This document shows positions 5,591 through 28,260 of a DNA stretch of 64,000 bases, in pieces. A program made the position numbers and the translations under genes. The DNA is taken from positions 124,001 to 188,000 of the forward strand of contig NZ_CP121665.1 in the NCBI RefSeq assembly GCF_029714285.1, in the 5' to 3' direction. The DNA is from Rhizobium sp. CB3090 (GTDB lineage: Bacteria; Pseudomonadota; Alphaproteobacteria; Rhizobiales; Rhizobiaceae). Numbering within the stretch: position 1 is the first letter of the stretch; every line of letters starts with the position of its first letter. The notes beneath the pieces are model-generated. The model was not told the origin of the DNA. It saw nothing but the letters and a program-made list of their open reading frames with translations, and made no database searches.

Positions 5591-5604
5591 TTGATCTTCC
5601 TCAA
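5591..5604. promoter_or_regulatory. FNR/FixK-type box, one mismatch
   Basis: TTGAT-CTTC-CTCAA against the consensus TTGAY-N4-RTCAA; one mismatch. Its centre is 58 bases upstream of the ATG at 5656, the same spacing as the other boxes of the island. Confidence 0.65.
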
Positions 5605-5655
5605 AGCAGGACGCTGACGGCCAGCATAATATCGGTCATTACGCGGGGAGATGCG

Positions 5656-7251
5656 ATGACGGATCCTATCCTACATTTTCATGGCGCAGCGGGCGGCGTT
5701 ACCGGCTCTTGTTTCGTTCTGGAGCATAATGGCTTTCGAACCATGTTCGATTGCGGCATGTTCCAGGGCTCAAAAACGGAAAAAGAGCTGAACTACCGGC
5801 CATTCCCGTTTGAACCTTCGTCAATTCATTCAGTTATCCTGACCCATGCCCATATCGACCATTCGGGCCTTCTGCCGAAGCTTGTCAAAGCGGGTTTCGA
5901 TGGTCCGATCTATTGCACTGCCGCCACGGTCGACCTCTGCACAATTATGCTGCAAGACAGCGGACACATTCAGGAAATGGAGGTCGAACAGCTCAATCGA
6001 CGAAACCGTCATCGCTCACATGCTGCGATAGAACCAATTTACACGGTCGCCGATGCGCGCGCCGCCATGACGCAGTTCCGCGCCGTCTCTTACAAAGAAT
6101 GGCAAGAGGGACAGGGTGGGCTTCGGTTTCGCTTCTGGGATGCGGGTCACCTGCTGGGTTCATCTTCGGTCGAAGTCGAACTAACCGCTGACGACGGCCC
6201 GATCCGCATCCTCTTTTCCGGCGACGTTGGCCCTGAGCACAAATTGTTGGAATATCCCCCGGATGCGCCTCACAATCTCGATTACGTTATCTGCGAAAGC
6301 ACTTATGGCGACCGAGAACGTGATGAAGCTTCACAAGAAGGCCGACGGCAGCAACTTCGAGAGATCGTCAGTCGGGCCTATCATCCTAATGGCGCCCTCC
6401 TTATTCCGTCCTTCGCTGTCGAGCGTACGCAGGAGCTCCTCGCCGATCTCTATGCACTGATGGAGACAGGCAAGTTGCCGCGTACTCCGATCATCATCGA
6501 TTCTCCGCTGGCATCGCGGGCAACCGCTATCTTTAAGCGTCATGCTCCATCGCTTCCCAACGGTGAACTACTTCAGAAAGCGCTGAACTCACAAAATATA
6601 CGCTTCACGGAGAGCGCCGAGCAGTCGAAGGCAATCGATCTCATTCACGGGTTTTATATCGTCATCGCCGCGAGTGGCATGTGCGAGGCCGGCCGTATCC
6701 GGCATCGTTTGAAAAATTGGCTGTGGCGTGATGAGGGCACTGTCTTGCTTGTCGGGTTCCAGGCTGAAGGAACCTTGGGGCGCATACTTCAGGATGGTGC
6801 ACGCACGGTAAAGATACAGGGCGAGGAAATCGTCGTGCGGGCCGCGATCAAATCGCTGGAAGCCTATAGCGGCCACGCCGATGCAACCGAACTGGTGGAT
6901 TGGATTACGGGGCGGGAGCCGATCCGATCAGGATTGTTCCTCGTCCATGGCGAGCCGGCGGCGATCGATCAATTGAAGAGCCGACTATCTGGACGAGCAT
7001 CCGTGCCAACCATCTTTAGACCCGCGCTTGACAGTGGATATCGCCTTACGAAATCCGGTGCCGTCGAACTCGGCGCTGCCGCACCTCCGCCGCGTCTGAC
7101 GGCGGACGAGGTTGGGCATCGCGATTGGCATAATGATTATCAATCCGTCATTTTGGATCTTGAGGAGAAGCTACGCCAGGCTGCCGACCAAAAGAGACGC
7201 GCCGTCATTCTACGCAGAATCAAAAGAGCGCTTCAAGACGACGCCGTCTAA
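5656..7251 (+). CDS. Metallo-beta-lactamase/beta-CASP RNase-like protein
   Basis: Protein of 531 residues with the metallo-beta-lactamase fold followed by a beta-CASP domain, the architecture of RNA-processing nucleases of the CPSF73/Ysh1 type. The zinc motif THAHIDHSG lies near residue 60, further metal ligands in WDAGHLLGSS and FSGDVG. The beta-CASP part has FAVERTQELL, GMCEAGRIRHRL and the terminal YSGHADATEL with a ligand His. The last 100 residues are a looser extension. Related proteins recur in anaerobiosis/stress islands of proteobacteria, where a role in RNA turnover under low oxygen has been proposed (family-level inference). The ATG at 5656 follows GGGGAG; an FNR-type box sits 58 bases upstream. 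Start of the stress island. Confidence 0.9.
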   Translation: MTDPILHFHGAAGGVTGSCFVLEHNGFRTMFDCGMFQGSKTEKELNYRPFPFEPSSIHSVILTHAHIDHSGLLPKLVKAGFDGPIYCTAATVDLCTIMLQDSGHIQEMEVEQLNRRNRHRSHAAIEPIYTVADARAAMTQFRAVSYKEWQEGQGGLRFRFWDAGHLLGSSSVEVELTADDGPIRILFSGDVGPEHKLLEYPPDAPHNLDYVICESTYGDRERDEASQEGRRQQLREIVSRAYHPNGALLIPSFAVERTQELLADLYALMETGKLPRTPIIIDSPLASRATAIFKRHAPSLPNGELLQKALNSQNIRFTESAEQSKAIDLIHGFYIVIAASGMCEAGRIRHRLKNWLWRDEGTVLLVGFQAEGTLGRILQDGARTVKIQGEEIVVRAAIKSLEAYSGHADATELVDWITGREPIRSGLFLVHGEPAAIDQLKSRLSGRASVPTIFRPALDSGYRLTKSGAVELGAAAPPPRLTADEVGHRDWHNDYQSVILDLEEKLRQAADQKRRAVILRRIKRALQDDAV

Positions 7252-7417
7252 GGCAAGGCAGGGGGATGAACTATGTTGACAACAATCCGGGATTGCCGAA
7301 GAAGCGGAGAATGCTTTGCCATTCCGACGATCGGAGAAATCGAAGGAGCCGGTCCATGTCACCTGACGCTCGTTGCAAGAACCATGCTTCCCATATGAGA
7401 ATATCATGCCCAAGCCA

Positions 7418-8404
7418 CTACTCTGGCTTCAGCACGGCTGCGCCGCTCACTCGGCCCGCCCGCAAGTCGGCAACGGCCGCGTTGGCTTCGGCAAGGGGAT
7501 AAACGCTCGTATGCGTCTTGACCATCGCCTCGCGAGCAATCGGGAAGAATTCACGGGCGTCCTGACGCGTAAGGTTTGCGACGGATATGATGCTTCGCTC
7601 CTCCCACAGCAGGCGGTAGGGCATTGTTGGGATATCGCTCATGTGAATGCCGCCGCAGACCACGCGCCCGCCTTTTCGGATCGCCTTCAACGCAGCAGGA
7701 ACGAGCTCGCCGACGGGAGCGAAGATGATTGCCGCATCGAGGAGCACCGGAGGCGATTGATCGGAACCGCCTGCCCACTTCACGCCGAGACTAAGCGCGA
7801 ACTGCTTGGCAGTGTCATCTCCGGGTCGTGAAAACGCATAGACTTCTTTTCCTTGCCACCGGCAAACTTGGCAGATGATATGCGCGGCCGCGCCAAAGCC
7901 ATAGAGTCCAATGCGCTTCGCATCGCCAGCTTGCTTCAGCGAGCGCCAGCCAATGAGACCTGCGCACATCAACGGAGCCAGAGCGACGGGATCGGCCTCC
8001 TCATCGAGGTCGAAGGCGAAATCAGCATCCGCGACCGTATGGGTGGCAAAGCCGCCATCACGGGTGTAGCCCGTAAATAAGGGCTCGTCGCAGAGATTCT
8101 CCTGCCCCCTCAGGCAGAAAGAACACTCGCCGCAAGAATGGCCAAGCCAGGGCACGCCGACCCTTCGCCCTATCCTTGCTGGAGACACGTTTTTCCCAAC
8201 CCCTTCGACAATGCCGACGATTTCATGGCCGGGAATGAGCGGAAGTTTAGGGTTGGGCAGATCGCCGTCAAACACATGCAAATCCGTTCTACAGATAGCA
8301 CAAGCCTCGACACTCACCAAAAGCTCGTCCTTTCCGGGCACAGGATCCGGCCGTTCCATCATGCGCAACGGTGCGCCAACCTTTTCCATCACCATTGCCC
8401 GCAT
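7418..8404 (-). CDS. Zinc-dependent alcohol dehydrogenase family protein
   Basis: Medium-chain dehydrogenase of 328 residues. Catalytic zinc ligands are visible in CAICRTDLHV and GHEIVG. The structural-zinc cysteines are in the series GECSFCLRGQENLC, and the Rossmann motif is GLYGFGAAAH. The closest subgroup is the YjgB/AdhA-like alcohol dehydrogenases that reduce aldehydes with NAD(P)H. The start at 8404 is set by MRAMVMEK, the normal family N-terminus, with GGGAGACAG as ribosome site; a longer frame to 8509 adds a non-family leader. The gene overlaps the 3' end of the DUF2267 gene by 116 bases and is probably co-transcribed with it. In low-oxygen islands such an enzyme may serve fermentative redox balance (inference). 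Confidence 0.9.
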   Translation of the reverse strand: MRAMVMEKVGAPLRMMERPDPVPGKDELLVSVEACAICRTDLHVFDGDLPNPKLPLIPGHEIVGIVEGVGKNVSPARIGRRVGVPWLGHSCGECSFCLRGQENLCDEPLFTGYTRDGGFATHTVADADFAFDLDEEADPVALAPLMCAGLIGWRSLKQAGDAKRIGLYGFGAAAHIICQVCRWQGKEVYAFSRPGDDTAKQFALSLGVKWAGGSDQSPPVLLDAAIIFAPVGELVPAALKAIRKGGRVVCGGIHMSDIPTMPYRLLWEERSIISVANLTRQDAREFFPIAREAMVKTHTSVYPLAEANAAVADLRAGRVSGAAVLKPE

Positions 8405-9644: not shown

Positions 9645-9658
9645 TTGACCAAGATCAA
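9645..9658. promoter_or_regulatory. FNR/FixK-type box
   Basis: TTGAC-CAAG-ATCAA, full match to TTGAY-N4-RTCAA. It has no well-spaced recognised gene; it might serve a small RNA or a long-leader transcript. Confidence 0.7.
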
Positions 9659-9856: not shown

Positions 9857-9870
9857 TTGATTGGGATCAA
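9857..9870. promoter_or_regulatory. FNR/FixK-type box upstream of groEL
   Basis: Perfect palindrome TTGAT-TGGG-ATCAA. Its centre is 55 bases before the groEL ATG, as expected for a class II activator site near -41 with a short leader. Confidence 0.85.
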
Positions 9871-9918: not shown

Positions 9919-11541
9919 ATGGCGCATAAACAAGTTTTGTTTCGCTCGGCCGCGCGAGAGAAAATCCTTAGAGGCACTACCCAACTCGCCGACGCGGTGC
10001 GTGTTACGCTTGGCCCGCGATCGAAGGCCGTCCTCATCGAGAAAAAATGGGGAACTCCGCTCGTCTGCAATGACGGCGTCACAATTGCGAAGGAGTTCGA
10101 CCTCAAGGATCCCGAAGAAAATCTCGGTGCGCGCATGCTCCGCCAGGCTGCTGAAAAAACCGGCGACATCGTCGGAGATGGAACCAGCACGGCAACGGTT
10201 TTGGCTCAGGCCATCTTCTCCGACGGGTTGCGCAATGTCGTGGCCGGCGCCAGTGCCATCGAAATCAAACGTGGCCTGGATCGAGCGCTCGCATGCGCCG
10301 TCGGCCTGCTCAAACAAAACAGCAGACCGGTCACCGACAAGCGCGAAAAAGTGCAAGTCGCAACGATCTCAGCACATAACGATGCGCAGATCGGCACCTT
10401 GATTGGCGATGCAATGGAAAGAATTGGTGATGACGGCGTCATCACGGTCGAGGAATCCAAGACAACGGAAACCGTGCTCGAAGTCGTCAAGGGCATGCAA
10501 TTCGATCGCGGTTTTCTGTCGCCCTATTTCGTGACCGATAGCGAACGCATGGAAATCGTCTTGGAGGAAGCCGCGATCCTTCTTGTCGACCGCAAGCTCA
10601 ACGCGCTCAACGATTGCGTTGCCCTGCTCGAATCCATTGCAAAAGCGAGCATGCCTTTGCTGGTCGTTGCCGAGGATGTCGAAGGAGAAGCTCTAGCGAC
10701 ACTGATCGTCAACCAGATCCGCGGCACATTTCGCAATTGCGCGGTCAAGGCACCCGGTTTCGGAGATCGGCGAAAGGCGATGCTGCAGGATATCGCGATC
10801 GTGACAGGTGGACAGGTTCTGTCGGAAGACCTCGGCATCAAGCTCGAGGCGGTAACGCTCGACCAGCTCGGTCATGCGGCCCGGGTGGTTATCACGAAGG
10901 ACACGACCACCATTGTCGGTGGTGCAGGTGACAAGAAAGCGATTGCGGCGCGCATCGATCAGCTTCGCCGCGAAATTGACGAGACCTCAAGCGATTACGA
11001 CAAGGAAAAATTGAGGGAGCGCCTGGCAAAGCTATCGGGCGGGATCGCGGTCATAAGAGTCGGTGCGGCCACCGAGGCGGAAATGAAAACCAAGAAAGAG
11101 GCCCTCGATGACGCCATCAATGCGACCAAAGCAGCGGTCGCCGAGGGCATATTGCCGGGAGGTGGTCTGGGTCTGCTGCGCTGTGCAGAGGCAATCGCCA
11201 CCGAAGAGGAGCGTTGCGAAGGCGACGAGCGGACGGGCGTACAGATATTAAAGCGTGCCCTGGAGGTACCGATCCGTCAGATAGCGGAAAACTCCTCGAC
11301 CGATGGAGGCGTCGTTGTGGCGAAAGTCTTGGAGGGCAATGGCACGTTTGGCTACGATGCGGAGAAGAAGGTCTATACCGACATGTTTGCCGCAGGCATT
11401 GTCGATCCCACGAAGGTCGTCCGGGTCGCGCTCGAAAATGCCGTCTCAGTAGCCAGTGTCTTGCTGCTTACAGAAGCGACGATGACGGAAATACCCGATG
11501 ATGCGAAGGAAAGCGCCGTTCATCCCGAAGCCGCTCTATAG
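9919..11541 (+). CDS. groEL: GroEL-type chaperonin, stand-alone copy
   Basis: Chaperonin of 540 residues covering the whole GroEL fold. Diagnostic stretches include VTLGPRSKAVLIEKKWG, NDGVTIAKEF, the ATP-binding GDGTSTATVLAQAI (most GroELs have DGTTTA), VKAPGFGDRRKAML and GGGLGLLRCAEAI near the end. It lacks the usual GGM-repeat tail; the C-terminus is instead charged and ends in PEAAL. No groES lies beside it, whereas housekeeping groEL normally follows groES, so this is a secondary, specialised chaperonin. A perfect FNR-type box 55 bases upstream suggests induction at low oxygen rather than by heat. Ribosome site GGAGGTG eight bases before ATG. In this family such copies usually still need a GroES partner from elsewhere (inference). 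Confidence 0.95.
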   Translation: MAHKQVLFRSAAREKILRGTTQLADAVRVTLGPRSKAVLIEKKWGTPLVCNDGVTIAKEFDLKDPEENLGARMLRQAAEKTGDIVGDGTSTATVLAQAIFSDGLRNVVAGASAIEIKRGLDRALACAVGLLKQNSRPVTDKREKVQVATISAHNDAQIGTLIGDAMERIGDDGVITVEESKTTETVLEVVKGMQFDRGFLSPYFVTDSERMEIVLEEAAILLVDRKLNALNDCVALLESIAKASMPLLVVAEDVEGEALATLIVNQIRGTFRNCAVKAPGFGDRRKAMLQDIAIVTGGQVLSEDLGIKLEAVTLDQLGHAARVVITKDTTTIVGGAGDKKAIAARIDQLRREIDETSSDYDKEKLRERLAKLSGGIAVIRVGAATEAEMKTKKEALDDAINATKAAVAEGILPGGGLGLLRCAEAIATEEERCEGDERTGVQILKRALEVPIRQIAENSSTDGGVVVAKVLEGNGTFGYDAEKKVYTDMFAAGIVDPTKVVRVALENAVSVASVLLLTEATMTEIPDDAKESAVHPEAAL

Positions 11542-11644: not shown

Positions 11645-11658
11645 TTGACCAGCATCAA
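11645..11658. promoter_or_regulatory. FNR/FixK-type box upstream of CBS gene
   Basis: TTGAC-CAGC-ATCAA, full match; centre 69 bases before the ATG at 11721. Confidence 0.8.
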
Positions 11659-11720
11659 TGCTGCAGGGACCATATCGTGGAAATCTGTAGTCGTCGTTGT
11701 TGCTGAAGGAGGAAATAGCA

Positions 11721-12141
11721 ATGCATGTTTCCGAGGCGATGCACAAAGAGGTTCGGTCAGTTGCGCCGACGATGCCGGTCAAGGACCTCGCGAAAATCAT
11801 GAAGACTGAAGACATCGGAGCAATTCCCGTTGTCGAAGACGACCGGATGATCGGCATGATCACCGATCGGGATCTGGCTTTGCGCGCCCTCGCAGATGGG
11901 CACGACATATCAATGCTTACAGCGCGCGAAGTGATGTCGCCTGGCGCGACATTCTGTCATGCTACCGATCGGATTGAAGAGGCCGTGCACATGATGGAGA
12001 AACCATAAAATCCGACGGCTGCCCGTGATGAACGCCAAAAACCGAATGGTTGGCATGCTGAGCATCGGCGAAATTTCGCATTGCGGCAGTAAACCTCTGA
12101 CCGACCTTTTGATGAAATCCGTCAGCGAACATCACGCTTAA
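11721..12141 (+). pseudogene. CBS-domain protein split by a +1 frameshift
   Basis: A two-CBS-domain protein of about 140 residues of the Hrp1/YbbP-like stress type that binds adenosine nucleotides. The first 95 residues (MHVSEAMHKEV onward, with GAIPVVEDDRMIGMITDRD) are in frame until a TAA at 12006-12008. Removing the single T at 12006 restores the family sequence KIRRLPVMNAKNRMVGMLSI and continues to a stop at 12139-12141. Hence the second CBS motif is cut off by one inserted base: either a real inactivating mutation or a sequencing error. Ribosome site GAAGGAGG 8 bases before ATG. It lies between groEL and a small membrane protein and has its own FNR-type box. Confidence 0.85.
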
Positions 12142-12909: not shown

Positions 12910-13572
12910 TCATGGGCTTAATCCCAAATCCTGGGCAAGCATTTGTGAGTGGAGATATCCGACCACATCGTCATCGGAGAGCTGAGGAAAATGGTTGTAA
13001 AAGTCGCCGACGCCCCGGAAGAAGTGCGTCGTCTCCAGGCAGATGATTTCATCTGCGTCGTTTTTGAGCGCGGATATTGCCGAGAAGTGCGCGACGGGAA
13101 CGGCAATGACGGTACGGCCAACGCCGTTCCCTTTGATCGCCGACAGGGCAGCTTCCATTGTCGAGCCGGTCGCCAAGCCATCGTCAACCAAAATAACAGT
13201 CTTGCCCCGTATGTCGCAGCGAGGCAGAACATCCTTAAATACAGCCTTTCTTCTGGCGATCTCCCGCAACTCTTCTTCAGCCGCAAACTGAAAGGCTTCT
13301 TCCGTGACGCGGACGCGTCGGATGACCGCCTCGTTCCTATAGATATGGGGATGGGTGCCATCCACAACCGCGCCCATAGCAACCTCCGGCGCGCAGGGAA
13401 GGCCGACTTTCCGCACAAAAACAATGTCCATGGGCGCGTGCAAAACTTTGGCAATTTCAAACGCCACCGGAACACCGCCTCTAGGCAGCCCGAGAACAAC
13501 GACATGGCGATTGCGATAGTGACGGAGCACTTTTGCGAGCTTCCGCCCCGCTTCCGTTCGATCTTCAAACAT
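12910..13572 (-). CDS. Phosphoribosyltransferase-domain protein
   Basis: Protein of 220 residues with a type I phosphoribosyltransferase fold. The PRPP loop is clear in VILVDDGLATGSTM, and VLGLPRGGVPVAFEIA and FVRKVGLPCAPEVAMGAV are typical of the DosR-regulon type Rv0571c/Rv2030c family. The substrate of these stress-linked members is not known. Start at 13572 (MFEDRTEAGRKLAKVL) with TAGGAG ribosome site is preferred; a longer frame to 13776 runs through the FNR boxes. A perfect FNR-type box is centred 62 bases upstream, and the gene is divergent from hsp20, so the two probably share a regulatory region. Confidence 0.9.
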   Translation of the reverse strand: MFEDRTEAGRKLAKVLRHYRNRHVVVLGLPRGGVPVAFEIAKVLHAPMDIVFVRKVGLPCAPEVAMGAVVDGTHPHIYRNEAVIRRVRVTEEAFQFAAEEELREIARRKAVFKDVLPRCDIRGKTVILVDDGLATGSTMEAALSAIKGNGVGRTVIAVPVAHFSAISALKNDADEIICLETTHFFRGVGDFYNHFPQLSDDDVVGYLHSQMLAQDLGLSP

Positions 13573-13627
13573 GCTCCGATCTCCTAAGGGCTGGATGCAA
13601 ATTTCTAACGGAAGGCAGTAGGGGTCA

Positions 13628-13641
13628 TTGATATGCATCAA
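13628..13641. promoter_or_regulatory. FNR/FixK-type box in phosphoribosyltransferase/hsp20 divergent region
   Basis: Perfect TTGAT-ATGC-ATCAA; centre 62 bases from the phosphoribosyltransferase start (minus strand). Confidence 0.85.
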
Positions 13642-13663: not shown

Positions 13664-13677
13664 TTGACGGCGATCAA
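13664..13677. promoter_or_regulatory. Second FNR/FixK-type box in the divergent region
   Basis: TTGAC-GGCG-ATCAA, full match, 36 bases (centre to centre) from the first box. It is 130 bases before the hsp20 ATG, so it would act on a longer leader. Confidence 0.75.
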
Positions 13678-13800: not shown

Positions 13801-14319
13801 ATGGCCGATACAGCAACGAAGCTACCCGTCAAGACGGAAGAAAAACAACCCAGGACCCCGGACATCGGTTGGTCGCCCTTCGAGAGTTTGCGTACGGAAA
13901 TCGATCGCCTATTCGATGATCTCACGCCCACGTTCTGGCACCGCCCATTCGGCCGCCTTTCGCTTGGCAAATCCTTCCCCTCAATCGCAGCACCCGCTGT
14001 CGATGTCGTGGAAAAGGAAAAGTCGTACGAAATCTCGGCCGAGTTGCCCGGCATCGAACCCAAGGACCTTGACGTACGCGTCGCCAATCACACGCTGACG
14101 ATCAAAGGCGAAAAGCAGGAAACCAAGGAAGAGAAGGAAAAGGAATATTACCTTTCCGAACGCCGGTATGGATCCTACCAGCGCAGTTTCCAGCTACCCC
14201 AAAGCGTCGACGCATCCAAGATCGAAGCCTCGTTCAACAATGGCGTTTTGATAGTAACTCTTCCCAAGACTGCGGAAGCACAGAAAAACGAGCGGAAAGT
14301 CATCATCAAGGCAACGTGA
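13801..14319 (+). CDS. Hsp20/alpha-crystallin family small heat-shock protein
   Basis: Protein of 172 residues. A variable N-terminal arm (with WSPFESLRTEIDRLFDD) leads to the alpha-crystallin domain, about residues 62-165: AVDVVEKEKSYEISAELPG, NHTLTIKGEK, RRYGSYQRSFQLP and the closing FNNGVLIVTLPKT. It ends KVIIKAT, a short tail with an IIK that may stand in for the IxI anchor. ATP-independent holdase that forms oligomers in the cytoplasm. ATG at 13801 with GAGGAG seven bases upstream is chosen; the frame is open further back but passes through the operator. Divergent from the phosphoribosyltransferase with two FNR-type boxes between them. A strong hairpin terminator follows. Confidence 0.95.
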   Translation: MADTATKLPVKTEEKQPRTPDIGWSPFESLRTEIDRLFDDLTPTFWHRPFGRLSLGKSFPSIAAPAVDVVEKEKSYEISAELPGIEPKDLDVRVANHTLTIKGEKQETKEEKEKEYYLSERRYGSYQRSFQLPQSVDASKIEASFNNGVLIVTLPKTAEAQKNERKVIIKAT

Positions 14320-18217: not shown

Positions 18218-18655
18218 TTATCGGTAGACCAGAACGGGTATGGTCGATCTTTCAAGCACCTTGCCGGTGACGCTTCCGAGCAGCAGTGAGCTCACGCCGC
18301 TTCGGCCATGGGATCCCATGGCTATCAAATCACATCCCAAATTCGCGGCGGTGTCCGCAATGGTGCGAGCGACATCTTCGCTCCCAAGCACTAAAGTATT
18401 GCAGGAAACGCCGTGGCCATCGGCCCTAACTTTCTGCTGTGCCAACATCGCATTACACTTCGAGGTGGACGTCTTCTCATATTTTTCGCGCTGATTGAGA
18501 TAGTCGATGCTGTCAACCGCCAACATATGAAATGGCTCCGTAACCGCCAGCAGCGTGATGTCGGCTCTCATATCCGCTGCAAGGGCAATCGCCTGCTCGG
18601 CGGCTTGCGATGCAAGCTTGGAGCCGTCCGTGGGAATGAGGATGTGCTTGAACAT
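18218..18655 (-). CDS. Universal stress protein, single domain
   Basis: UspA-family protein of 145 residues. Starts MFKHILIPTDGS with the ATP-binding Asp, and carries the nucleotide motif G-2x-G-9x-G-S/T in GSHGRSGVSSLLLGSVT near residues 117-133, then VLERSTIPVLVYR. It should therefore bind ATP. Ribosome site GGAGGCC before ATG. First gene of an apparent two-gene operon with the Pat-like ACD-GNAT protein. The pairing recalls mycobacteria, where a protein acetyltransferase modifies a Usp (established for M. smegmatis Pat); by analogy this Usp may be a substrate (inference). No FNR-type box was found at the usual distance. Confidence 0.93.
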   Translation of the reverse strand: MFKHILIPTDGSKLASQAAEQAIALAADMRADITLLAVTEPFHMLAVDSIDYLNQREKYEKTSTSKCNAMLAQQKVRADGHGVSCNTLVLGSEDVARTIADTAANLGCDLIAMGSHGRSGVSSLLLGSVTGKVLERSTIPVLVYR

Positions 18656-18852: not shown

Positions 18853-19689
18853 TCAGTGGCTCCAGAAAATGGGGAGCTTGGCCGTTTCAAGCATAGCCTG
18901 CGTCACACCGCCGAAGATGATCTCCCGCAGACGGGAATGGCTGTATGCGCCCATAACGATAAGCTCGGCAGCCACATCGACAGCATGCTGTTTCAACGTC
19001 TCATCGACGGTTCTTCCGCCGCTGGACAGGACATCCACGGCAACCGGAACGCCATGCCGCGCAAGGTAGGTGGCGATATCCGCGCCAGGCTCCTCACCAC
19101 TGTTGGACTCGGTCGCAATGGGATCGATCAAAGTCACATGAACCTCGCTCGCCGTCTGCAGCATCGGCAAGGCCTGCTGAACAGCCCGAGCAGCTTCCAT
19201 TTGGGAATCCCAGGCAATGAGTGCTGACCGTGGCGTCAGATTTGCAACTCGATCTCTCGGATTGAAGAGCACGGGTGTGGGCGATTGAAACAGGGCACCG
19301 TCCAGGATGCGTTTGCACAAATCCTGATCTTGCGCCGCTTGGCGACCGACAAGCGTCAGGTCAGCATATAGGGCACGCTTGGCGATATCTTCGTCAGCCC
19401 ATGCAAATTCGGTGTAGAGATCCTGGGCATCATAGGAAAGGCCCGATGTCTTAAGCATGTCTTTGACGATCTCCACTTGATCGGCAAGCTTGGCAAGGTC
19501 GCCTTGACGTTCTTCCAGCCAAGCCGCGGAGATGATTTCGGCATAGCCGCCAACCGGCGGAGGCGCCGCCATTGCGACAATCGTCACAGCAAGGTGAGCG
19601 TCCGCGGATTGGCCCAGGGCGATGGCGTTCTTCAGATCCTCCTGAAAGTGATTGACGCCGACGGGAACGAGAATTGTCTTATAGCTCAT
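18853..19689 (-). CDS. Universal stress protein, two tandem domains
   Basis: Protein of 278 residues with two Usp folds (about 1-145 and 150-278). The first begins MSYKTILVPVGVNHFQED and has lost the GxxG nucleotide loop. The second keeps VMGAYSHSRLREIIFGGVTQ, close to the G-2x-G-9x-G pattern with one Gly replaced. It ends in LPIFWSH. Tandem Usps of this length are typical of rhizobial stress islands. The start at 19689 is chosen because the domain begins there and GGAGATACGATC precedes; the frame is open 12 codons further. A full FNR-type box is centred 69 bases upstream. The gene is separated from the next usp by 200 bases, so it is a separate unit. Confidence 0.93.
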   Translation of the reverse strand: MSYKTILVPVGVNHFQEDLKNAIALGQSADAHLAVTIVAMAAPPPVGGYAEIISAAWLEERQGDLAKLADQVEIVKDMLKTSGLSYDAQDLYTEFAWADEDIAKRALYADLTLVGRQAAQDQDLCKRILDGALFQSPTPVLFNPRDRVANLTPRSALIAWDSQMEAARAVQQALPMLQTASEVHVTLIDPIATESNSGEEPGADIATYLARHGVPVAVDVLSSGGRTVDETLKQHAVDVAAELIVMGAYSHSRLREIIFGGVTQAMLETAKLPIFWSH

Positions 19690-19751: not shown

Positions 19752-19765
19752 TTGATCCGAGTCAA
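19752..19765. promoter_or_regulatory. FNR/FixK-type box upstream of tandem usp gene
   Basis: TTGAT-CCGA-GTCAA, full match to TTGAY-N4-RTCAA; centre 69 bases before the start at 19689 (minus strand). Confidence 0.8.
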
Positions 19766-20273: not shown

Positions 20274-21386
20274 TCACCCCTGTTGTACGGCTCGGGTCTC
20301 GCGGCGAATGAGCCATAGGCCCGGCAACATCGGCAGCCAGAAGGTAAAGCCGCGAAAGATAAGTGTCGCAGCGAGCGCTGCCTCCGCTTGCACCCCGAAT
20401 AAATGCAACACGCCGACGCATGTACCCTCGAAGGAACCAAGGCCAAGCGGAAGGGGCGCAAGGGTCGCCACGACCGACGCAAGAATAAAACTCACGAAGG
20501 CTTTCGTCGGCGCGATATCCGTACCTATGGACCACAATGTGAGCCAAAGCGTCACCGCGTCGAGCAAGAAGATGCTCGCCTGCAAGGCAATCGTCTGCGC
20601 GAGAATGACGCTGTCGCCGACAATGTCACGTCTGACCGATCTCAGCACATCCGCAAGTCTTTTTGCTGGGCGCCAATCGAGAATAGATTGCGGGATAAAG
20701 CGACCTCGCGAGCGCGTAATAAGGAGCAAAACACCTGCGATGAGGATAATGACGCCGGCAAAGGCAATCGACATTGAAAGCCAAGCATCGCTCAGGTCGC
20801 CACTATGCCATAGCAGGATGAAAGCGACGATGGCCATCAGGAGATAGGCCGCGTAGTAGGAAAGCGCCGCGATCAAAAGCGCCGTCACCGCGACTGCAGA
20901 AGGAATGGACCGATGAAGCAGACCACGGACCACCATGATGCTGCCGCTTAATCCACCCGTCGGTATGGCCTGATTGGCGAAAAGCTCCACGACGGCAAGA
21001 CCGAGCAGATCGAGAACACGTCTGTGAAATCCAGCTTTGGCCATAACCGTCGCCCAGATGGCGGCGGCACATGCATAGGTCGCCGCTTGCGAGACGAGCG
21101 CGATTGCGAGCCATAACGGATCGGCCGCCTCCAGCGTCGCGATGAAAATTGTGATGTCGCCATAGTGGAGAATGAAGCGGATCAGGCCGCCCAGGACGAT
21201 GAGACCCACCCCCCAGCCCAGGATGAGGCTGATAGTGCTTGTCTCTCCGGACAGAGATTCGACATGGTATGGAGGCTGTTGAGCGGACCTCGCGGAATCT
21301 GCTCGATCATCCATCATCTGCCTCCACTTTGCGATGACCGCCGTACTCGGCATTGCCGTCAGATGTTTCCGCGCATGGTTTTCCAT
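20274..21386 (-). CDS. Lysylphosphatidylglycerol synthase TM-region / flippase-like membrane protein
   Basis: Polytopic membrane protein of 370 residues with about eight to nine helices (first at 53-75). It matches the UPF0104 / LPG-synthase transmembrane family: LFANQAIPTGGLSGSIMVVRGL and the closing LPLGLGSFEGTCVGVLHLFGV are the diagnostic blocks. It has no cytoplasmic aminoacyl-transferase domain, so it is a stand-alone integral protein, possibly a lipid flippase. The first 45 residues are hydrophilic. A full FNR-type box is centred 76 bases before the ATG at 21386; no strong ribosome site is seen there and an in-frame ATG at 21353 is an alternative. Its role in an oxygen-stress regulon may be envelope lipid remodelling (inference). 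Confidence 0.85.
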   Translation of the reverse strand: MENHARKHLTAMPSTAVIAKWRQMMDDRADSARSAQQPPYHVESLSGETSTISLILGWGVGLIVLGGLIRFILHYGDITIFIATLEAADPLWLAIALVSQAATYACAAAIWATVMAKAGFHRRVLDLLGLAVVELFANQAIPTGGLSGSIMVVRGLLHRSIPSAVAVTALLIAALSYYAAYLLMAIVAFILLWHSGDLSDAWLSMSIAFAGVIILIAGVLLLITRSRGRFIPQSILDWRPAKRLADVLRSVRRDIVGDSVILAQTIALQASIFLLDAVTLWLTLWSIGTDIAPTKAFVSFILASVVATLAPLPLGLGSFEGTCVGVLHLFGVQAEAALAATLIFRGFTFWLPMLPGLWLIRRETRAVQQG

Positions 21387-21455: not shown

Positions 21456-21469
21456 TTGACGCGTATCAA
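21456..21469. promoter_or_regulatory. FNR/FixK-type box upstream of flippase-like gene
   Basis: TTGAC-GCGT-ATCAA, full match; centre 76 bases before the start at 21386 (minus strand). Confidence 0.8.
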
Positions 21470-21655: not shown

Positions 21656-21669
21656 TTGAGGCTGATCAA
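21656..21669. promoter_or_regulatory. FNR/FixK-type box, one mismatch, upstream of DegP-like gene
   Basis: TTGAG-GCTG-ATCAA; the first half has one mismatch. Centre 71 bases before ATG 21734. Confidence 0.6.
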
Positions 21670-21733: not shown

Positions 21734-23149
21734 ATGGTGGCGCATATATTCCGAGGGACAAACGGCCGGGATCATGTCCTACAAAACGGCCTTAAAGTCA
21801 TGGTTTCCGCCGTCCTCGTATTGTTCCTGTGCCTCTGTCAGGCTGGCGCGGCCTCCTTGGAGCAACCGTCCTTGGCGCCGATGCTTGAGCGGGTTCTGCC
21901 GAGTATCGTCAGTATCGCGGTTCGAGCACAAACAGAGTCCGACGATGAAAGCTCGTTCGTGACGCCGCGCGCCGAAAAATCCGATGCCTCCCCAAAGGAC
22001 GCCGCGCCCTTGATGCACATATCCCAGACGACCGGCGCCGGCGTAATCGTCGACGCAGGAAACGGTTATATACTGACAAGCAACCATGTCATCGACAACG
22101 CCATCGATATCAAGGTCACGGTTGCCGGCGGCGGCACCCATGACGCTGCGGTCATCGGTGCCGACGCGGATACCGACCTTGCCGTCATCCAGATCAAGGC
22201 CACTGGTTTGGTGACAGCGCAATTGGGCGACTCACGAAAACTGCGCGTCGGAGACTATGTCGCCGCCATCGGCAATCCATTCGGCCTCGGGCAGACGGTG
22301 ACCTTTGGAATCGTCAGCGCTCTCGGCCGAACGGGGCTTGGGCTCGAAAATTATGAAAACTTCATTCAAACCGACGCCTCCATCAATCCCGGCAACTCCG
22401 GCGGTGCCTTGGTCAATCTCGATGGAGAGGTGGTCGGCATCAACAGCGCCATTCTGGGACCGTCGGGCGCAAATATCGGCATCGGCTTCGCGGTCCCGGT
22501 CGGCATGGCCAAGACCGTCATGGAGCAGCTCATTGCGCATGGTGAAATTCGTCGTGGACAGCTTGGGGTTCTTGTGCAGGACAATGACGCCGACCTTGCG
22601 AAGGCACTAGCGATCAATGCCTCGACGGGGGCGCTGGTCGGCGAAGTTGTTCCTGGATCTGCAGGCGCCAAGGCCGGGATGTTGATTGGCGATGTTATTG
22701 TGGCCGTCAACGATATGCCGATCCGCACTGCCGGCGAGCTGCGAATGACAATCTCGTCCTTTCCGCCGGGCGTGGCGGTCAAGCTGTCGGTGATCCGCCC
22801 CAGCGGAAAAGTTGACATGACGGCAACGCTGACCTCCAGCGTGCCCGTCGCGGATGCGTCCCGCCCGGCCGCGATCGAAGGAGAAGGATTACTGGCGCTT
22901 GTCACGCTTGAGACGCTTAGGCCCGACTCGGATGCCTTCGGAAAAGTGGAAGGCGCCTTTGTGGCATCCACGATCGAAGATAGCAGGGCTGCGGCTGCCG
23001 GCCTGACGCCCGGCGACGTCATCGTCAGTATCAATCAAAAGCCGACACCCACGCCACAAATGGTCATCGACCTCGCACGAAAGGAAAAAGATCTGCTTCT
23101 GCTGGGAATCTTCAGGGATGGCCACAAACGCTTCTTAGTGGTGAGGTAA
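21734..23149 (+). CDS. DegP/HtrA-type periplasmic serine protease
   Basis: Protein of 471 residues. A hydrophobic segment at about 22-40 (VMVSAVLVLFLCLC...AGAA) is a signal peptide with an N-terminal extension. The trypsin-like domain has the triad H118 (SNHVID), D148 (DTDLAV) and S222 (NPGNSGGAL). Two PDZ domains follow (about 275-365 and 380-470); the first has LGVLVQDND and PGSAGAKAGMLIGDVI, the second SRAAAAGLTPGDVIVSIN. Protease and chaperone for misfolded envelope proteins. ATG 21734 is preferred because GGAGGT lies eight bases before it; ATG 21716 has a Shine-Dalgarno directly abutting it. A one-mismatch FNR-type box lies upstream. The long acidic loop between residues 66 and 95 is variable in the family. 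Confidence 0.93.
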   Translation: MVAHIFRGTNGRDHVLQNGLKVMVSAVLVLFLCLCQAGAASLEQPSLAPMLERVLPSIVSIAVRAQTESDDESSFVTPRAEKSDASPKDAAPLMHISQTTGAGVIVDAGNGYILTSNHVIDNAIDIKVTVAGGGTHDAAVIGADADTDLAVIQIKATGLVTAQLGDSRKLRVGDYVAAIGNPFGLGQTVTFGIVSALGRTGLGLENYENFIQTDASINPGNSGGALVNLDGEVVGINSAILGPSGANIGIGFAVPVGMAKTVMEQLIAHGEIRRGQLGVLVQDNDADLAKALAINASTGALVGEVVPGSAGAKAGMLIGDVIVAVNDMPIRTAGELRMTISSFPPGVAVKLSVIRPSGKVDMTATLTSSVPVADASRPAAIEGEGLLALVTLETLRPDSDAFGKVEGAFVASTIEDSRAAAAGLTPGDVIVSINQKPTPTPQMVIDLARKEKDLLLLGIFRDGHKRFLVVR

Positions 23150-23297: not shown

Positions 23298-23311
23298 TTG
23301 ATCTCAATCAA
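23298..23311. promoter_or_regulatory. FNR/FixK-type box upstream of small ORF and site-2 protease
   Basis: Perfect TTGAT-CTCA-ATCAA. Centre is 56 bases before ATG 23361, and 263 before the protease gene. Confidence 0.8.
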
Positions 23312-23567: not shown

Positions 23568-24695
23568 ATGAGATGGTCGCTCAAGATCGGCATAATCGCT
23601 GGAACGGCGATCCGAGTGCATATGACTTTTGTCGTCCTGCTCGTCTGGATATGGCTGGCCCACTATCAAATCAGTGGAGCGCGAGCGGCTTGGGAAGGAC
23701 TGGCCTTTGTCGTTGCGGTATTTGGCTGCGTATTGCTGCACGAGTTTGGTCATATCGCCGTTGCGCGTCGCTTCGGCATCAAGACGCCCCAGATAATGTT
23801 GCTGCCGATCGGAGGCGTGGCGACCCTCGAGCGACTTCCCAAGGAACCACGGCAAGAGATGTTGATCGCCATCGCCGGCCCGCTGGTGAACCTTGCCATA
23901 ACCGCACTGATCGTTGCGGCGCTCGGAGGAACAGGAAGTCTGGACCAGGCTTTCGAGCCTCAGGATCCCCGCATCGGCTTTCTCGTTAGACTGGCCGGCG
24001 TCAACATCTTTCTTATGTTGTTTAATCTGATCCCGGCGTTTCCGATGGATGGCGGCCGAGTTCTGCGTGCCGTTCTGTGCTTCTGGCTACCCTGGGTTCG
24101 GGCCACACAGATTGCCGCAGCGATCGGACAGGGCATCGCCTTCGCGCTCGGTCTCTTCGGCTTGCTTTACAATCCCTGGCTCATCGTAATTGCGATCTTT
24201 GTCTATCTTGCCGCGACCAGCGAGGAACGGGAAGCGCAGATCGAGGATGTCGCTGCTCATGTCCGCGTGTCCGACGTGATGATTACCGAATTCGAGACCC
24301 TTTCACGCTCTGCCTCCATCGAAGAGGCTGTCGACAGGATGCTTGCGACGACACAAGGCGATTTTCCTGTCGTGGGATCTGATGGGCGCCTGATGGGCCT
24401 GCTGACCCGCAACAGCATCATCACGGCGCTGAAGGAGCAAGGGCCTGGGACGCCCGTCACTCAGGCCATGCGGAGCAACATACCGGAAATCGATTATCGC
24501 TCTCCGTTGAAGGAAGGCTTGCGGCGCATGCGGGAGGAAGATGCCCCAGTGGTAGCGGTGGTCGATGACGCCGGTTCGCTGTCCGGCCTCATCAACTACG
24601 AGACAATTGGTGAGATCTTGATGGTGCGATCGGCGGCATCCGATGATTTCAAGTTTGGTCATCTGCGCCACGGCGGATTGAAGTATCGCTTCTAG
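23568..24695 (+). CDS. Site-2 protease (M50) family membrane metalloprotease with CBS pair
   Basis: Protein of 375 residues. About six membrane helices in residues 1-215 carry the zinc motif HEFGH (H58, E59, H62) and the distal zinc ligand D161 in NLIPAFPMDGGR, so the active site is complete. A CBS pair at about 250-365 follows (VSDVMITEFETLS, QGDFPVVGSDGRLMGLLTR, DAPVVAVVDDAGSLSGLI), which may sense adenosine nucleotides. This is the Rip3/Rv2625c-type arrangement; Rv2625c belongs to the mycobacterial DosR regulon. Proteases of this family cut membrane-bound regulators within the bilayer. Start ATG 23568 after AAGGGGTTCAGGC. It is probably driven by the FNR-type box at 23298. Confidence 0.93.
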   Translation: MRWSLKIGIIAGTAIRVHMTFVVLLVWIWLAHYQISGARAAWEGLAFVVAVFGCVLLHEFGHIAVARRFGIKTPQIMLLPIGGVATLERLPKEPRQEMLIAIAGPLVNLAITALIVAALGGTGSLDQAFEPQDPRIGFLVRLAGVNIFLMLFNLIPAFPMDGGRVLRAVLCFWLPWVRATQIAAAIGQGIAFALGLFGLLYNPWLIVIAIFVYLAATSEEREAQIEDVAAHVRVSDVMITEFETLSRSASIEEAVDRMLATTQGDFPVVGSDGRLMGLLTRNSIITALKEQGPGTPVTQAMRSNIPEIDYRSPLKEGLRRMREEDAPVVAVVDDAGSLSGLINYETIGEILMVRSAASDDFKFGHLRHGGLKYRF

Positions 24696-25411: not shown

Positions 25412-25425
25412 TTGATTCCGATCAA
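25412..25425. promoter_or_regulatory. FNR/FixK-type box
   Basis: Perfect TTGAT-TCCG-ATCAA; centre 70 bases before the ATG at 25489. Confidence 0.85.
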
Positions 25426-25488
25426 AGCCGTCGCAGGAAGTACGGCGCATTGTTCGACGTGAACCAAAATTCATGAAGGATTGAGACG

Positions 25489-25800
25489 ATGCTGAGAGCC
25501 AAACGCGATACCCTCGGCGGCGCGCCCTCCAAGGCCATTCCCTCGTTGGGTGAGATAGAAGGTCGCATAATGATCCTTGAGCTACTCGCGCAAACCGCTC
25601 TCACCCGCCTTATTCGGCTTCATAGCTCCGAAGAAAAATCTGAGCTCATCAGAGCGATCAGGCACGCGATCGATCGAAAATGCCACGATGCTAAGCTTTG
25701 TGGAAGCGACAGAGAGTCCGCAGAGCAATATGCGGAGGAATTGCTGGCATGTGCGCAGGAGCAGGCAATCGATATCAGTGCAACCCGTGAAAGCGCCTGA
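25489..25800 (+). CDS. Hypothetical stress-island protein, 103 residues
   Basis: Soluble protein of 103 residues, no signal peptide, mostly helical. The middle has MILELLAQTALTRLIRLHSS and IRAIRHAIDRKCHDAK, the C-terminus an acidic helix (ESAEQYAEELLACAQEQAI). Two to three cysteines. I do not recognise a family. A perfect FNR-type box 70 bases upstream and its place between protease and CBS-BON gene mark it as part of the same regulon. The ribosome site is weak (GATTGAGACG). A similar piece appears decayed on the other strand near 25.1 kb. Confidence 0.7.
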   Translation: MLRAKRDTLGGAPSKAIPSLGEIEGRIMILELLAQTALTRLIRLHSSEEKSELIRAIRHAIDRKCHDAKLCGSDRESAEQYAEELLACAQEQAIDISATRESA

Positions 25801-25897: not shown

Positions 25898-26569
25898 ATG
25901 TTGGCAAAAGACATCATGACTAGGAACGTCATCTCGGCCACACCGGCAATGAGTGTTCGAAATGCCGCGCTACTTATGCTCGCAAACGGCGTTAGCGGCC
26001 TTCCAGTGCTTGACGACAATGGAGCCGTTTGCGGCATGTTGACAGAGGGGGACCTGATCCGCCGCATTGGCGTAAACTGGGCTGCAAAGGACGCTCGAGA
26101 GCGTGACGATAAGCAGGGATTGAACACCTACATCCGAACCTATGGTTGGTCGGTCGAGGAAGCAATGACTAGAAATGTCGTAAGCATCGCCCCTGAGACG
26201 GACCTCGGGCTCGTCGGCAAATTGATGCTTGAGCACAACGTCAAGCGAATTCCGGTCATCGACCATGGGCACCTTGTCGGTATCGTCAGTCGATGCGATC
26301 TGCTCGGCCTGGTCATCGATGCACCTCCGGAAAAAATCGCAATGGGTGATGACGCCATAAGACTGGCCGTCGCAACTCGACTAGCAACGGAGCTTGGCCT
26401 CAGCAGCGACAAGGTCACCGTTATTGTCAAAGATGGTCAGGTCTATGTGGAAGGAACAATAGAAACGAGCGTTCAACGGAAGGCGATCAGGTCACTGATA
26501 GAAAATATCGGCGGTATTGGCGCATTTGTTGATCAGACGAGGCTTCCTGTTCACACAACGTCAAATTGA
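25898..26569 (+). CDS. CBS-CBS-BON protein
   Basis: Protein of 223 residues with two CBS motifs (about 5-60 and 90-145) and a C-terminal BON domain (155-215). Visible: MLAKDIMTRNVISATPAMSV, GVSGLPVLDDNGAVCGMLTEGDLIRR, KRIPVIDHGHLVGIVSRCDLL and KVTVIVKDGQVYVEGTIE. This architecture is common in rhizobial and actinobacterial stress islands; the CBS pair probably binds AMP/ATP-type nucleotides. Ribosome site AGGGGATC. It is followed within 20 bases by the Nramp-like transporter gene, so the two are likely co-transcribed and the protein might gate or modulate the transporter, as CBS domains do for other carriers (inference). Confidence 0.93.
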   Translation: MLAKDIMTRNVISATPAMSVRNAALLMLANGVSGLPVLDDNGAVCGMLTEGDLIRRIGVNWAAKDARERDDKQGLNTYIRTYGWSVEEAMTRNVVSIAPETDLGLVGKLMLEHNVKRIPVIDHGHLVGIVSRCDLLGLVIDAPPEKIAMGDDAIRLAVATRLATELGLSSDKVTVIVKDGQVYVEGTIETSVQRKAIRSLIENIGGIGAFVDQTRLPVHTTSN

Positions 26570-26589
26570 TCCTCGGGCATAGCCATTCG

Positions 26590-27903
26590 ATGACTCAAGA
26601 CCTACTCACTGTCAAAGACAACTCTTTCCGTTCACGATTGTCGGATCGCCTCGCTCTTTTGCGGGAACACCCACTCGCCCGTGTTGGACCGGGCCTCATT
26701 ACGGGCGTCGCTGACGACGACCCAGGCGGCATCGCTACTTATTCACAGGCCGGCGCCCAATTTGGTCTGAATATGCTCTGGACAATGCCCATATCGTTTC
26801 CAATGATGGCGGTGGTCCAATCGACCTGTGCTCGCATCGGCCGCGTCACGGGACAGGGATTGGCGGCAAACATAAAGAGGACATTTCCCCCCGTGGTCTT
26901 GTTGGGGGTCGTGTTTTCGCTTCTTGTCGCCAACATGCTGAACATCGCCGCCGACGTTGCCGCGATGGGCGAAGTTGCGGAGCTTGTTACAGGACTCGAT
27001 CGACATTTGATGACAACGTTGTTCGTCTTTGGAACGCTCGCGATGCAGGTGTTTATTCCGTATCACCGCTATGTAGGTTTCCTAAAGTGGCTAACCGTTT
27101 CCCTACTGGCTTATGCGGCGGTCCTCTTCACGGTTCGGGTCGACTGGAGCCAGGTTGTGCTGCGGACGATCTGGCCGACAGTCACGATAACATCGAGCTA
27201 CTCTGCCGTCGTCGTCGGGGTCTTCGGCACCACCATCAGCCCCTATCTGTTCTTCTGGCAGGCTTCGGAAGAAGTTGAGGACATGAATTCACAAAATAGT
27301 GGAACGGCACTGGTTAATAATCCCGCGGGGGATGTCCAGGAGCTCCGTCGAATTCGCTGGGATACTTGGAGCGGCATGCTTTACTCCAATGCAACGGCTT
27401 TCTTCATCATATTGGCCACTGCGGCGACACTGAATGTCGCGGGTATCACCCATATCGACACTGCCGCGCAAGCAGCGAGCGCGTTGCGCCCGCTTGCCGG
27501 ATCGTTAGCCGCACTCGTTTTCGCGCTTGGAATCTTGGGAGTCGGTTTGATTGGCGTGCCCGTTCTCGCCGGCTCGGCCGGTTACGCGTTTGCCGAAGCC
27601 ATGGGATGGAGGTTCGGGTTGGAACGGGCACCAAGGGACGCGGGAGGCTTCTACGCGGTAATCGCCATAAGCGTACTTCTGGCATTGGGTATTCAATATT
27701 CACCGATCACGCCGATGAATGCCCTATTCTGGAGTGCTGTGGTGAACGGCCTTCTCGCCGTTCCTTTAATCATTGTAATTCTAATGCTGGCGTCCAATCC
27801 GAAAGTTATGGGCCGCTATACCATCGGGGACGCTTCGAAATGTATCGGGTGGGCGACCGTTGCGGTGATGACAATCGCGGCCATTACAATGTTCCTCCCT
27901 TGA
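26590..27903 (+). CDS. Nramp-family-like divalent metal transporter
   Basis: Membrane protein of 437 residues with about eleven helices. The first helix has the family's DPG turn in GVADDDPGGIATYS (canonical Nramps: DPGN). In helix six, where Nramps have the metal-binding MPH, this protein has TTISPYLFFWQASEEVE. So the substrate site differs and could select another ion, such as magnesium, as in Nramp-related transporters with altered sites (family knowledge; assignment inferred). ATG at 26590 is preferred; a TTG at 26566 would overlap the preceding stop. Second gene after the CBS-BON protein. Confidence 0.85.
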   Translation: MTQDLLTVKDNSFRSRLSDRLALLREHPLARVGPGLITGVADDDPGGIATYSQAGAQFGLNMLWTMPISFPMMAVVQSTCARIGRVTGQGLAANIKRTFPPVVLLGVVFSLLVANMLNIAADVAAMGEVAELVTGLDRHLMTTLFVFGTLAMQVFIPYHRYVGFLKWLTVSLLAYAAVLFTVRVDWSQVVLRTIWPTVTITSSYSAVVVGVFGTTISPYLFFWQASEEVEDMNSQNSGTALVNNPAGDVQELRRIRWDTWSGMLYSNATAFFIILATAATLNVAGITHIDTAAQAASALRPLAGSLAALVFALGILGVGLIGVPVLAGSAGYAFAEAMGWRFGLERAPRDAGGFYAVIAISVLLALGIQYSPITPMNALFWSAVVNGLLAVPLIIVILMLASNPKVMGRYTIGDASKCIGWATVAVMTIAAITMFLP

Positions 27904-28079
27904 CGAAAGTTGGCGCGCACTTGGCGGGATGCGCGCATCCTCGTGGCACGTGGCGCCATAAATGCTGCGCAGAACTTGGTCGCTCTTGTGCACTGGCATG
28001 CTGACCGCCCGAAAGATTTGGGGGTGCAGCGCAGGACTGCAATCATTGACGGGATATGCGATTGGGGCGCCATCAACTT
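27904..28079. other. Gap after transporter gene
   Basis: Contains an inverted repeat GCGCGCA...TGCGCGC (27913-27936) just after the stop, which may be a weak terminator; no T-run. Nothing else recognised. Confidence 0.4.
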
Positions 28080-28190
28080 TCAGAAATTCAGGACAAGTCG
28101 AATTGGCGTCGCCAGACCCCAGAGAAAGACGATCAACGTTGCTCCCAAAACTGCAACGGACCTCCAGATCGATTGATAAAGGATGTGCAT
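28080..28190 (-). CDS. Putative tiny membrane protein, 36 residues
   Basis: Frame of 36 codons from ATG 28190, starting MHILYQSIWRSVAVLGATLI and ending in an Arg and Asn-Phe. One transmembrane helix at about 10-30. The ribosome site is weak (GGATCG). Support comes from context: a one-mismatch FNR-type box is centred 63 bases upstream, the same spacing as for the other genes of the island. No family recognised. The IS3 element begins directly behind that box. Confidence 0.5.
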   Translation of the reverse strand: MHILYQSIWRSVAVLGATLIVFLWGLATPIRLVLNF

Positions 28191-28246
28191 GGCAGACGAT
28201 CCAAGTATTTGAGTGTCTTCCTCACTTTGTGTGGAGATCGGCCAAT

Positions 28247-28260
28247 TTGATTGGCATCAT
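28247..28260. promoter_or_regulatory. FNR/FixK-type box cut at the IS border
   Basis: TTGAT-TGGC-ATCAT: only the very last base differs from the consensus, and that base is the last one before the IS3 end. The insertion may have replaced the original A. Confidence 0.6.

Follow-up and report, generated by a model that had tools for sequence, protein, structure and literature searches.

The stretch of DNA analysed here (the window; C4:124001-188000, 64,000 bases) belongs to Rhizobium sp. CB3090, whose genome of 6,487,703 bases comes in four contigs (C1 3,911,316, C2 1,773,801, C3 561,108, and C4 241,478 bases). C4 is a plasmid of the repABC type, its first 20 kb matching the repABC regions of Rhizobium plasmids over at most 45% of the query at ~84-86% identity. 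In a profile search C3 carried nifH above the cut-off and three nodA genes, and because of these the host looks like a legume symbiont. Our subject is a set of short DNA boxes of the form TTGAY-N4-RTCAA (an exact box being a match to TTGAYNNNNRTCAA) in the window and in the rest of C4, together with the genes that follow these boxes and the regulators that may act on them. Positions given without a contig name count from the first base of the window. Genes were called with a simple codon-based script, which gave 211 genes on C4 (window included) and was wrong at least once, as described below for a phosphoribosyltransferase.

The boxes of the window, all given here by their plus-strand positions and with distances from the box centre to the start codon, accompany genes whose products are typical of stress survival. 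A one-mismatch box (5591..5604) lies 58.5 bases before the plus-strand gene of an MBL/beta-CASP RNase-like protein of 531 amino acids (aa) (5656..7251; PF10996, PF00753, PF07521), with a -10-like TAATAT 22 bases after the box; this protein also matched NF045584 and TIGR03675, both under their cut-offs. Two exact boxes precede groEL (9919..11541, plus strand; 540 aa; NF009489 and TIGR02348 above cut-off), one at 55.5 bases (9857..9870) and a distal one at 267.5 bases (9645..9658); the latter is also 241.5 bases from the minus-strand gene of an EF-hand protein (9027-9410). The exact box at 11645..11658 stands 69.5 bases before ATG 11721 of a plus-strand gene for a CBS-domain protein (CBS103, 11697..12008; PF00571; 103 aa, or 95 aa from this ATG). 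Exact boxes at 13628..13641 and 13664..13677 stand, respectively, 62.5 bases from the start (13572) of a minus-strand phosphoribosyltransferase gene (12910..13572; 220 aa; PF00156) and 130.5 bases before hsp20 on the plus strand (13801..14319; Hsp20/alpha-crystallin, 172 aa; PF00011). The open reading frame (ORF) that the script had called here on the wrong strand (12949-13587) had no family match and was discarded for the phosphoribosyltransferase. The exact box at 19752..19765 lies 69.5 bases before a minus-strand row of four genes, usp-usp-ligase/GNAT-BON, which encode universal stress proteins (Usps) of 278 aa (Usp278, 18853..19689) and 145 aa (Usp145, 18218..18655; both PF00582), an ADP-forming acyl-CoA ligase fused to a GNAT domain (15460..18201; 913 aa; named from family matches, with His252 kept in HTGALTG), and, downstream of the latter, a BON-domain protein of 215 aa (BON215, 14670..15317; PF04972).

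Further to the right, the exact box at 21456..21469 lies 76.5 bases before a minus-strand gene for a flippase-like membrane protein (20274..21386; 370 aa; PF03706, TIGR00374), and a one-mismatch box (21656..21669) lies 71.5 bases before the plus-strand gene of a DegP-like protease with trypsin and PDZ domains (21734..23149; 471 aa; PF13365, PF17820). The exact box at 23298..23311 is located where the first-pass annotation had placed it, but its target is uncertain, the gene that follows it on the plus strand at 263.5 bases being that of an M50 peptidase with a CBS domain (23568..24695; 375 aa; PF02163, PF00571). The exact box at 25412..25425 stands 70.5 bases before hyp103 (25489..25800, plus strand), which encodes an unannotated helical protein of 103 aa with no Pfam match; genes for a CBS-CBS-BON protein (25898..26569; 223 aa; PF00571, PF04972) and an Nramp-type transporter (26566..27903; 445 aa; PF01566) come after it on the same strand. 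The last box, a weak one-mismatch copy (28247..28260), lies beside the end of an IS3-family element and 63.5 bases from the start (28190) of a minus-strand ORF of 36 codons with a membrane-like segment (28080..28190). The tiny membrane protein that had been proposed as its target has the stated spacing but lacks a convincing homologue, two matches at E = 5 being all that a plasmid collection returned. The IS3-family element itself (transposase ORFs 28257-29257) abuts the box, and likeness to other IS copies begins at ~28263. All nine full matches that the first-pass annotation had listed (9645, 9857, 11645, 13628, 13664, 19752, 21456, 23298, and 25412) and its three one-mismatch copies (5591, 21656, and 28247) are present, and the nine spacings that it gave match those above. 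A tenth exact box, at 60266, is outside this cluster, within a called minus-strand ORF (59932-60471), and is probably due to chance.

Exact boxes are strongly enriched in the window and on C4 as a whole. The window has 10 of them compared with 0.26 expected (standard deviation 0.52), and none of 100 shuffles reached 10, the maximum being 2. Genome-wide there are 54 (C1 17, C2 10, C3 4, and C4 23), which means that C4, with 3.7% of the genome, has 95 exact boxes per Mb, a 19-fold excess over the 4.96 per Mb of the 31 sites elsewhere. Nine exact boxes in 22.7 kb correspond to a Poisson p of ~7e-15 at the off-C4 rate, for a region that was picked post hoc. With 79% of C4 called coding, 22 of its 23 exact boxes are intergenic by the gene calls, at C4:40,766-149,425. 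The comparison of box density with the rest of the genome found no equal density elsewhere, so the cluster claimed earlier stands as a dense group of boxes but not in its extent of 23 kb; the real unit is a 109-kb region (C4:40.8-149.4 kb), of which the window holds the right-hand part. Chance or base composition as the source of this density would fit the sites off C4, where 31 compare with 26 expected from the window shuffle rate scaled to the genome; many of these sites may be chance matches, and 13 lie within called ORFs. Given the counts in the window and on C4, the intergenic placement, and the recurrence of boxes before several homologues described below, we consider this explanation vanishingly improbable, and on the two counts we rejected it for the cluster. 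As the other 18 off-C4 sites are outside called ORFs, part of them may work too. In a survey of 41 genomes, the studied one included, 24 other genomes of the genus had 16 to 57 exact boxes, which places the 54 found here second within the genus as sampled; a genome from a different family of the same order had 56.

The boxes to the left of the window stand before genes for respiration, among others. Exact boxes were found at 79.5 bases before the pseudoazurin gene (TIGR02375), at 95.5 before ccoN/O/P (fixNOP), at 61.5 before fixG, with a copper P-type ATPase gene (fixI) also present, at 60.5 before cycH-, ccmF-, and ccmH-like genes of cytochrome c maturation, and between nnrU and nnrS. Further exact-box targets in this part of C4 are an aminotransferase gene, CBS-BON genes, and genes for P-type ATPases, and small genes or RNAs may lie at two more intergenic exact boxes (C4:81656 and C4:104304). 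The region also contains a Crp-type regulator gene, the copper nitrite reductase gene nirK (TIGR02376), and nor-like genes; neither nirK nor any of the nor-like genes is preceded by its own exact box, though they are inside the same region, and hemN (TIGR00538) has one-mismatch boxes only. These assignments come from C4 proteins outside the window, of which 30 were compared with Pfam, one more in a later Pfam scan, and ten with NCBIfam (six already scanned with Pfam and four new). The norD-, norC-, norB-, and fixH-like names are presumptive, being given from Pfam domains (VWA, cytochrome c, and COX1) and gene order. In NCBIfam at E 1e-10, the norD-, norC-, and fixH-like proteins had no match and the norB-like one matched no nitric oxide reductase model; fixQ, fixH, and fixS had no confirming family match.

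The presence of a box is conserved before some of the same genes in related bacteria. Homologues of 17 window proteins were sought in 27 loci (14 genome contigs and 13 plasmid records) and the 250 bases upstream of each were searched, the homologue being the best match per locus and possibly not the true orthologue. An exact box occurred before all homologues of GroEL (8/8), Hsp20 (12/12), and hyp103 (4/4) and before 14 of the 19 homologues of Usp278, whereas of 10,800 pieces of 250 bases drawn at random from these loci 423 contained one. The proportions were smaller for the CBS-BON protein (2/3), the beta-CASP protein (3/8, or 4/8 allowing one mismatch), Usp145 (2/7), DegP (1/4, with two more having one mismatch), BON215 (3/13), and the ligase/GNAT protein (2/11), and no exact box was found before homologues of the Nramp transporter (0/2), a DUF2267 protein (0/1), and hyp152 (0/2); CBS103 had no usable homologue for this comparison in the 27 loci. 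In five loci (L051-L054 and L057), the order Usp278, Usp145, and ligase/GNAT is kept with an exact box 70-74 bases before Usp278, and no box would then be expected before the two inner genes. The long distance between box and start at Hsp20 (130.5 here) is also found in relatives, all 12 homologues having it in the range of 117-170 bases, and the four-base box spacers differ between most relatives. The counts are not independent because some loci are close kin (L074/L075 and L050/L071). Seven of the 14 genome-contig loci (L056 and L058-L063) were devoid of exact boxes; these seven, which entered the survey via the ligase/GNAT protein, are all from records not named as Rhizobiaceae.

The layout of the promoters would fit class II activation in a minority of them. 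Of 21 promoters of this genome, 5 have a TANNNT hexamer 21-22 bases after the box, as do 15 of 61 related ones, where the mean count per offset is 0.18 and 0.44, respectively; it is thus enriched at this offset, in promoters that are not independent of each other. At the usual distance between a -10 hexamer and the transcription start, this would place the box centre ~40-42 bases before the start. In 83% of the 82 promoters a G occupies the second position beyond the box, as in the FnrN/FixK consensus TTGANCNNGATCAANG (PMC4999443).

The regulators that would read these boxes lie outside the window. It has been correctly noted before that the window has no fixK or fnr gene; the two fixK genes of C4 lie ~59 kb and ~6 kb before its start. 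Both the first (C4:64096-64827) and the second (C4:117291-118028) have a K-box in front and an hfixL gene next on the same strand, and the whole genome has just two perfect copies of the K-box (GTTACA-N4-GTTACA), one before each of them. The hybrid kinase hFixL beside the first is complete (C4:62151-64106; 651 aa). The second hfixL (C4:115560-117275, ~7-8 kb before the window start; 571 aa) ends in a receiver domain of which 47 of 111 positions were matched, that is, an incomplete one, and this copy may be broken or altered; the first is unaffected. The OmpR-type regulator FxkR is encoded at C4:40935-41660, so that hFixL, FxkR, and a fixK gene preceded by a K-box are all found on C4. Identity to the corresponding proteins of an R. 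brockwellii cluster, in which the response regulator gene adjoins a fixK-like gene, is 88% for FxkR, 78% for hFixL, and 68% for FixK. The helix sequence ETVSR, which we take to be an FNR-type recognition helix (E..SR), is present in both C4 FixK-type proteins (243 and 245 aa) and in one C3 protein. On inspection of their sequences, the two C4 proteins have no N-terminal cysteine cluster of the FnrN kind. No FnrN-type protein, combining an FNR helix with N-terminal cysteines, was found among the six FixK-like sequences of the genome that were inspected, or in the helix-turn-helix (HTH) scan, which covered 150 of 211 candidates and whose 23 matches were inspected in part; a FixK-like protein at C1:744858 has N-terminal cysteines but no FNR-type helix.

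Taken together, the density of the boxes, their intergenic placement, their recurrence before some homologues, the -10 spacing of a minority of promoters, and the two C4 FixK proteins with ETVSR support the FNR/FixK-type control suggested by the first-pass annotation. From these sequence features we regard it as very probable that the boxes are operators of FixK-type CRP/FNR activators and that C4 has a micro-oxic regulon whose right-hand part falls in the window. Several observations weigh against this interpretation. In the window, 19 sites with at most one mismatch compare with 5.97 expected, which leaves 9 besides the exact ones, and one-mismatch boxes as a class are hardly above chance; the boxes at 5591, 21656, and 28247 therefore need other support. 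Three exact boxes are far from a start codon (9645, 267.5 bases from GroEL; 13664, 130.5 from Hsp20; and 23298, 263.5 from the M50-CBS gene), and those at C4:81656 and C4:104304 have no called start within 400 bases. An exact box is missing before the homologues of the phosphoribosyltransferase (0/3), the flippase-like protein (0/2), and the M50-CBS protein (0/2, with 2/2 allowing one mismatch), as well as before 5 of 8 beta-CASP and 5 of 19 Usp278 homologues. Furthermore, 16 of the 21 own and 46 of the 61 related promoters have no TANNNT at the class II offset. Finally, a second ccoN, preceded by a one-mismatch box, is found on C3 along with genes for a FixK-like protein and a FixL-like kinase, and the C4 regulators thus need not act alone. 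In view of these C3 genes, C4 as the sole seat of micro-oxic control was rejected.

This last point leads to another possibility, namely that the operators are real but that the C3 FixK-like protein or an NnrR-like protein acts on them too or instead of the C4 FixK proteins. The C3 protein (C3:205369-205929) has ETVSR and lies ~1.2 kb from the FixL-like kinase, and one of the four C4 proteins with a Crp-type HTH is encoded next to the nirK/nnr genes. It is the C4 fixK genes, however, that have known K-boxes and lie among the boxes, and related plasmids have the same kinds of regulator genes beside similar stress genes. We thus hold an action of these other regulators, which would overlap with control by the C4 FixK proteins, to be possible but on balance doubtful. 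The C3 genes in question lie together with the three nodA at C3:121837-214725, on the same contig as nifH.

If the C4 FixK proteins are the activators, we infer a phosphorelay, a dependence on oxygen, and an activation of the target genes along the following lines. A fall in oxygen would cause the complete hFixL to act on FxkR, which would bind the K-boxes before both C4 fixK genes; FixK would then bind TTGAY-N4-RTCAA ~41 bases before the transcription start and recruit RNA polymerase as a class II activator. The predicted targets to the left of the window would serve high-affinity respiration, cytochrome c making, and stress responses, and those in the window protein upkeep and survival (GroEL, Hsp20, DegP, Usp, CBS, beta-CASP nuclease, and ligase/GNAT). 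It could be argued instead that these genes form a general stress set whose main trigger is other than low oxygen and for which the boxes are a minor input, since in Sinorhizobium fredii water-soluble humic materials raised 103 of 203 genes of pSF45436d, a plasmid with a similar island (PMC8552645). We consider this improbable, as C4 also has hFixL-type kinases and a cbb3 oxidase and other respiration genes with the same boxes, and as Bradyrhizobium has higher levels of several Usp, CBS, and Hsp20 proteins under microoxia (PMC6515984).

The C4 regulon looks real and coherent, and its type is already known in related rhizobia. The hFixL-FxkR-FixK system, the K-box, and the anaerobox have been described for R. 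leguminosarum 3841 (also R. johnstonii), which shares with C4 the same box, the K-box, a fixK-hfixL pair beside fixNOQP, and an fxkR gene (PMC7888657). On its plasmid pRL9, the 41 kb that were read contain six exact boxes, and groL and usp are present there too. Strain 3841 differs in having fnrN, of which there is none among the six FixK-like proteins here, and the second hfixL is truncated here. An Hsp20 gene with an anaerobox shows FnrN-dependent induction in R. leguminosarum (PMC11784457). Hsp20 is also among the predicted alphaproteobacterial FixK targets, as are phosphoketolase, a zinc alcohol dehydrogenase, and a CBS protein, with UspA in the FNR and DNR lists (PMC2908626). Annotated plasmids with comparable gene groups are S. 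fredii CCBAU 45436 pSF45436d, R. lentis p1, Rhizobium sp. NLR16a p1, Agrobacterium salinitolerans pDG3-1g, R. brockwellii pRltCC275eF, and R. johnstonii pRL9. In the first four of these, 41 kb contain 12-14 exact boxes together with usp, hsp20, groL, P-type ATPase, and CBS and/or BON genes, in a gene order other than that of C4, and pSF45436d also shares with C4 the ligase/GNAT and MBL/beta-CASP genes and the set of fixK, hfixL, and response regulator. Acetate kinase, phosphoketolase, ppsA, and glucokinase, which occur in some related islands, were not found on C4 (tblastn, E 1e-10). No description of the C4 plasmid or island was found in the literature searched, a result of little weight since the search was made without the species name.

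A likeness to the mycobacterial DosR regulon and the Pseudomonas Anr island had also been proposed for the window. It applies to gene content and not to control: DosR has M50-CBS and CBS proteins as well, and its regulator family and operator differ from those of FixK. A similar low-oxygen locus, lxa, exists in the betaproteobacterial Burkholderia. In B. cenocepacia, as compared here by its described content, this locus encodes an alpha-crystallin and six Usps whose increase is nearly confined to low oxygen, and its suspected regulator is a CRP/FNR protein homologous to Anr and FixK (PMC6127331, PMC9104464). The comparison had already been drawn in print for lxa, which was likened to DosR, Anr, and FixK, with Usps and alpha-crystallin shared by the DosR regulon (PMC6127331).

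The ligase/GNAT protein of the usp row may deserve particular attention. Most of the protein can be aligned with the protein acetyltransferases of known structure 9it0/9isq, and its ligase part aligns with ADP-forming acyl-CoA ligases. In 8wzu, 2csu, and 4xyl, the counterpart of His252 (in HTGALTG) is the histidine of SHTG, where 9it0/9isq have other residues and a gap. We take this position to be that of the phosphorylated catalytic histidine. It is kept in 11 of 18 aligned proteins, namely that of the window, nine from Rhizobium/Sinorhizobium/Rhizobiales records, and one from a Rubrivivax metagenome-assembled genome, and is not kept in the other seven (six Duganella and one Aureimonas). According to a review, the ligase domains of the bacterial acetyltransferases known so far have lost the catalytic histidine and with it their activity, and one acetyltransferase, from mycobacteria, has a universal stress protein as a substrate (PMC8556138). 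Since His252 is kept here, in contrast to those inactive domains, and given the acetylation of a Usp in mycobacteria, one might speculate that the row makes a two-in-one enzyme, an active ligase gaining ATP from acetyl-CoA under oxygen shortage, joined to a GNAT that acetylates proteins, for which the neighbouring Usps could be the first candidate substrates. We regard this idea as tentative and rather unlikely. No bifunctional ligase and acetyltransferase under a FixK box was evident by title among the literature matches listed. The notion that acetate kinase and the ligase/GNAT protein are mutually exclusive was not kept, as the stretches read do not extend far enough and, of two Rhizobium sullae records, each has one of the two genes.

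For hyp103, a search gave 43 proteins including its own cluster, and the named organisms were Rhizobium, Agrobacterium, or Rhizobiaceae. Its predicted structure is helical (mean pLDDT 85.6, from 27 sequences) and had no match in the PDB at E <= 0.001 (Foldseek); a resemblance to the isochorismate-pyruvate lyase fold (TM up to 0.65, E about 2-3) was not significant and was dismissed. Elsewhere in the window lie two adjoining pairs of OmpR-type response regulator and histidine kinase (485-4533), an AAA_14/DUF4143 ATPase (30998-32221), and a histidine kinase of 1353 aa with MASE1 and multiple PAS domains (44574-48635).

In summary, this strain would have a micro-oxic programme, comprising kinase, relay, activator, respiration, and stress survival, together on one accessory plasmid and apart from the nod/nif plasmid C3, and it yields a clear and testable list of operators. 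Among the candidate FixK targets, the beta-CASP nuclease, hyp103 with its box in four of four related loci, and the ligase/GNAT protein with its histidine of catalytic type are little studied. If the two-in-one enzyme proved true, fermentative gain of ATP would be coupled to the acetylation of stress proteins within one low-oxygen operon.

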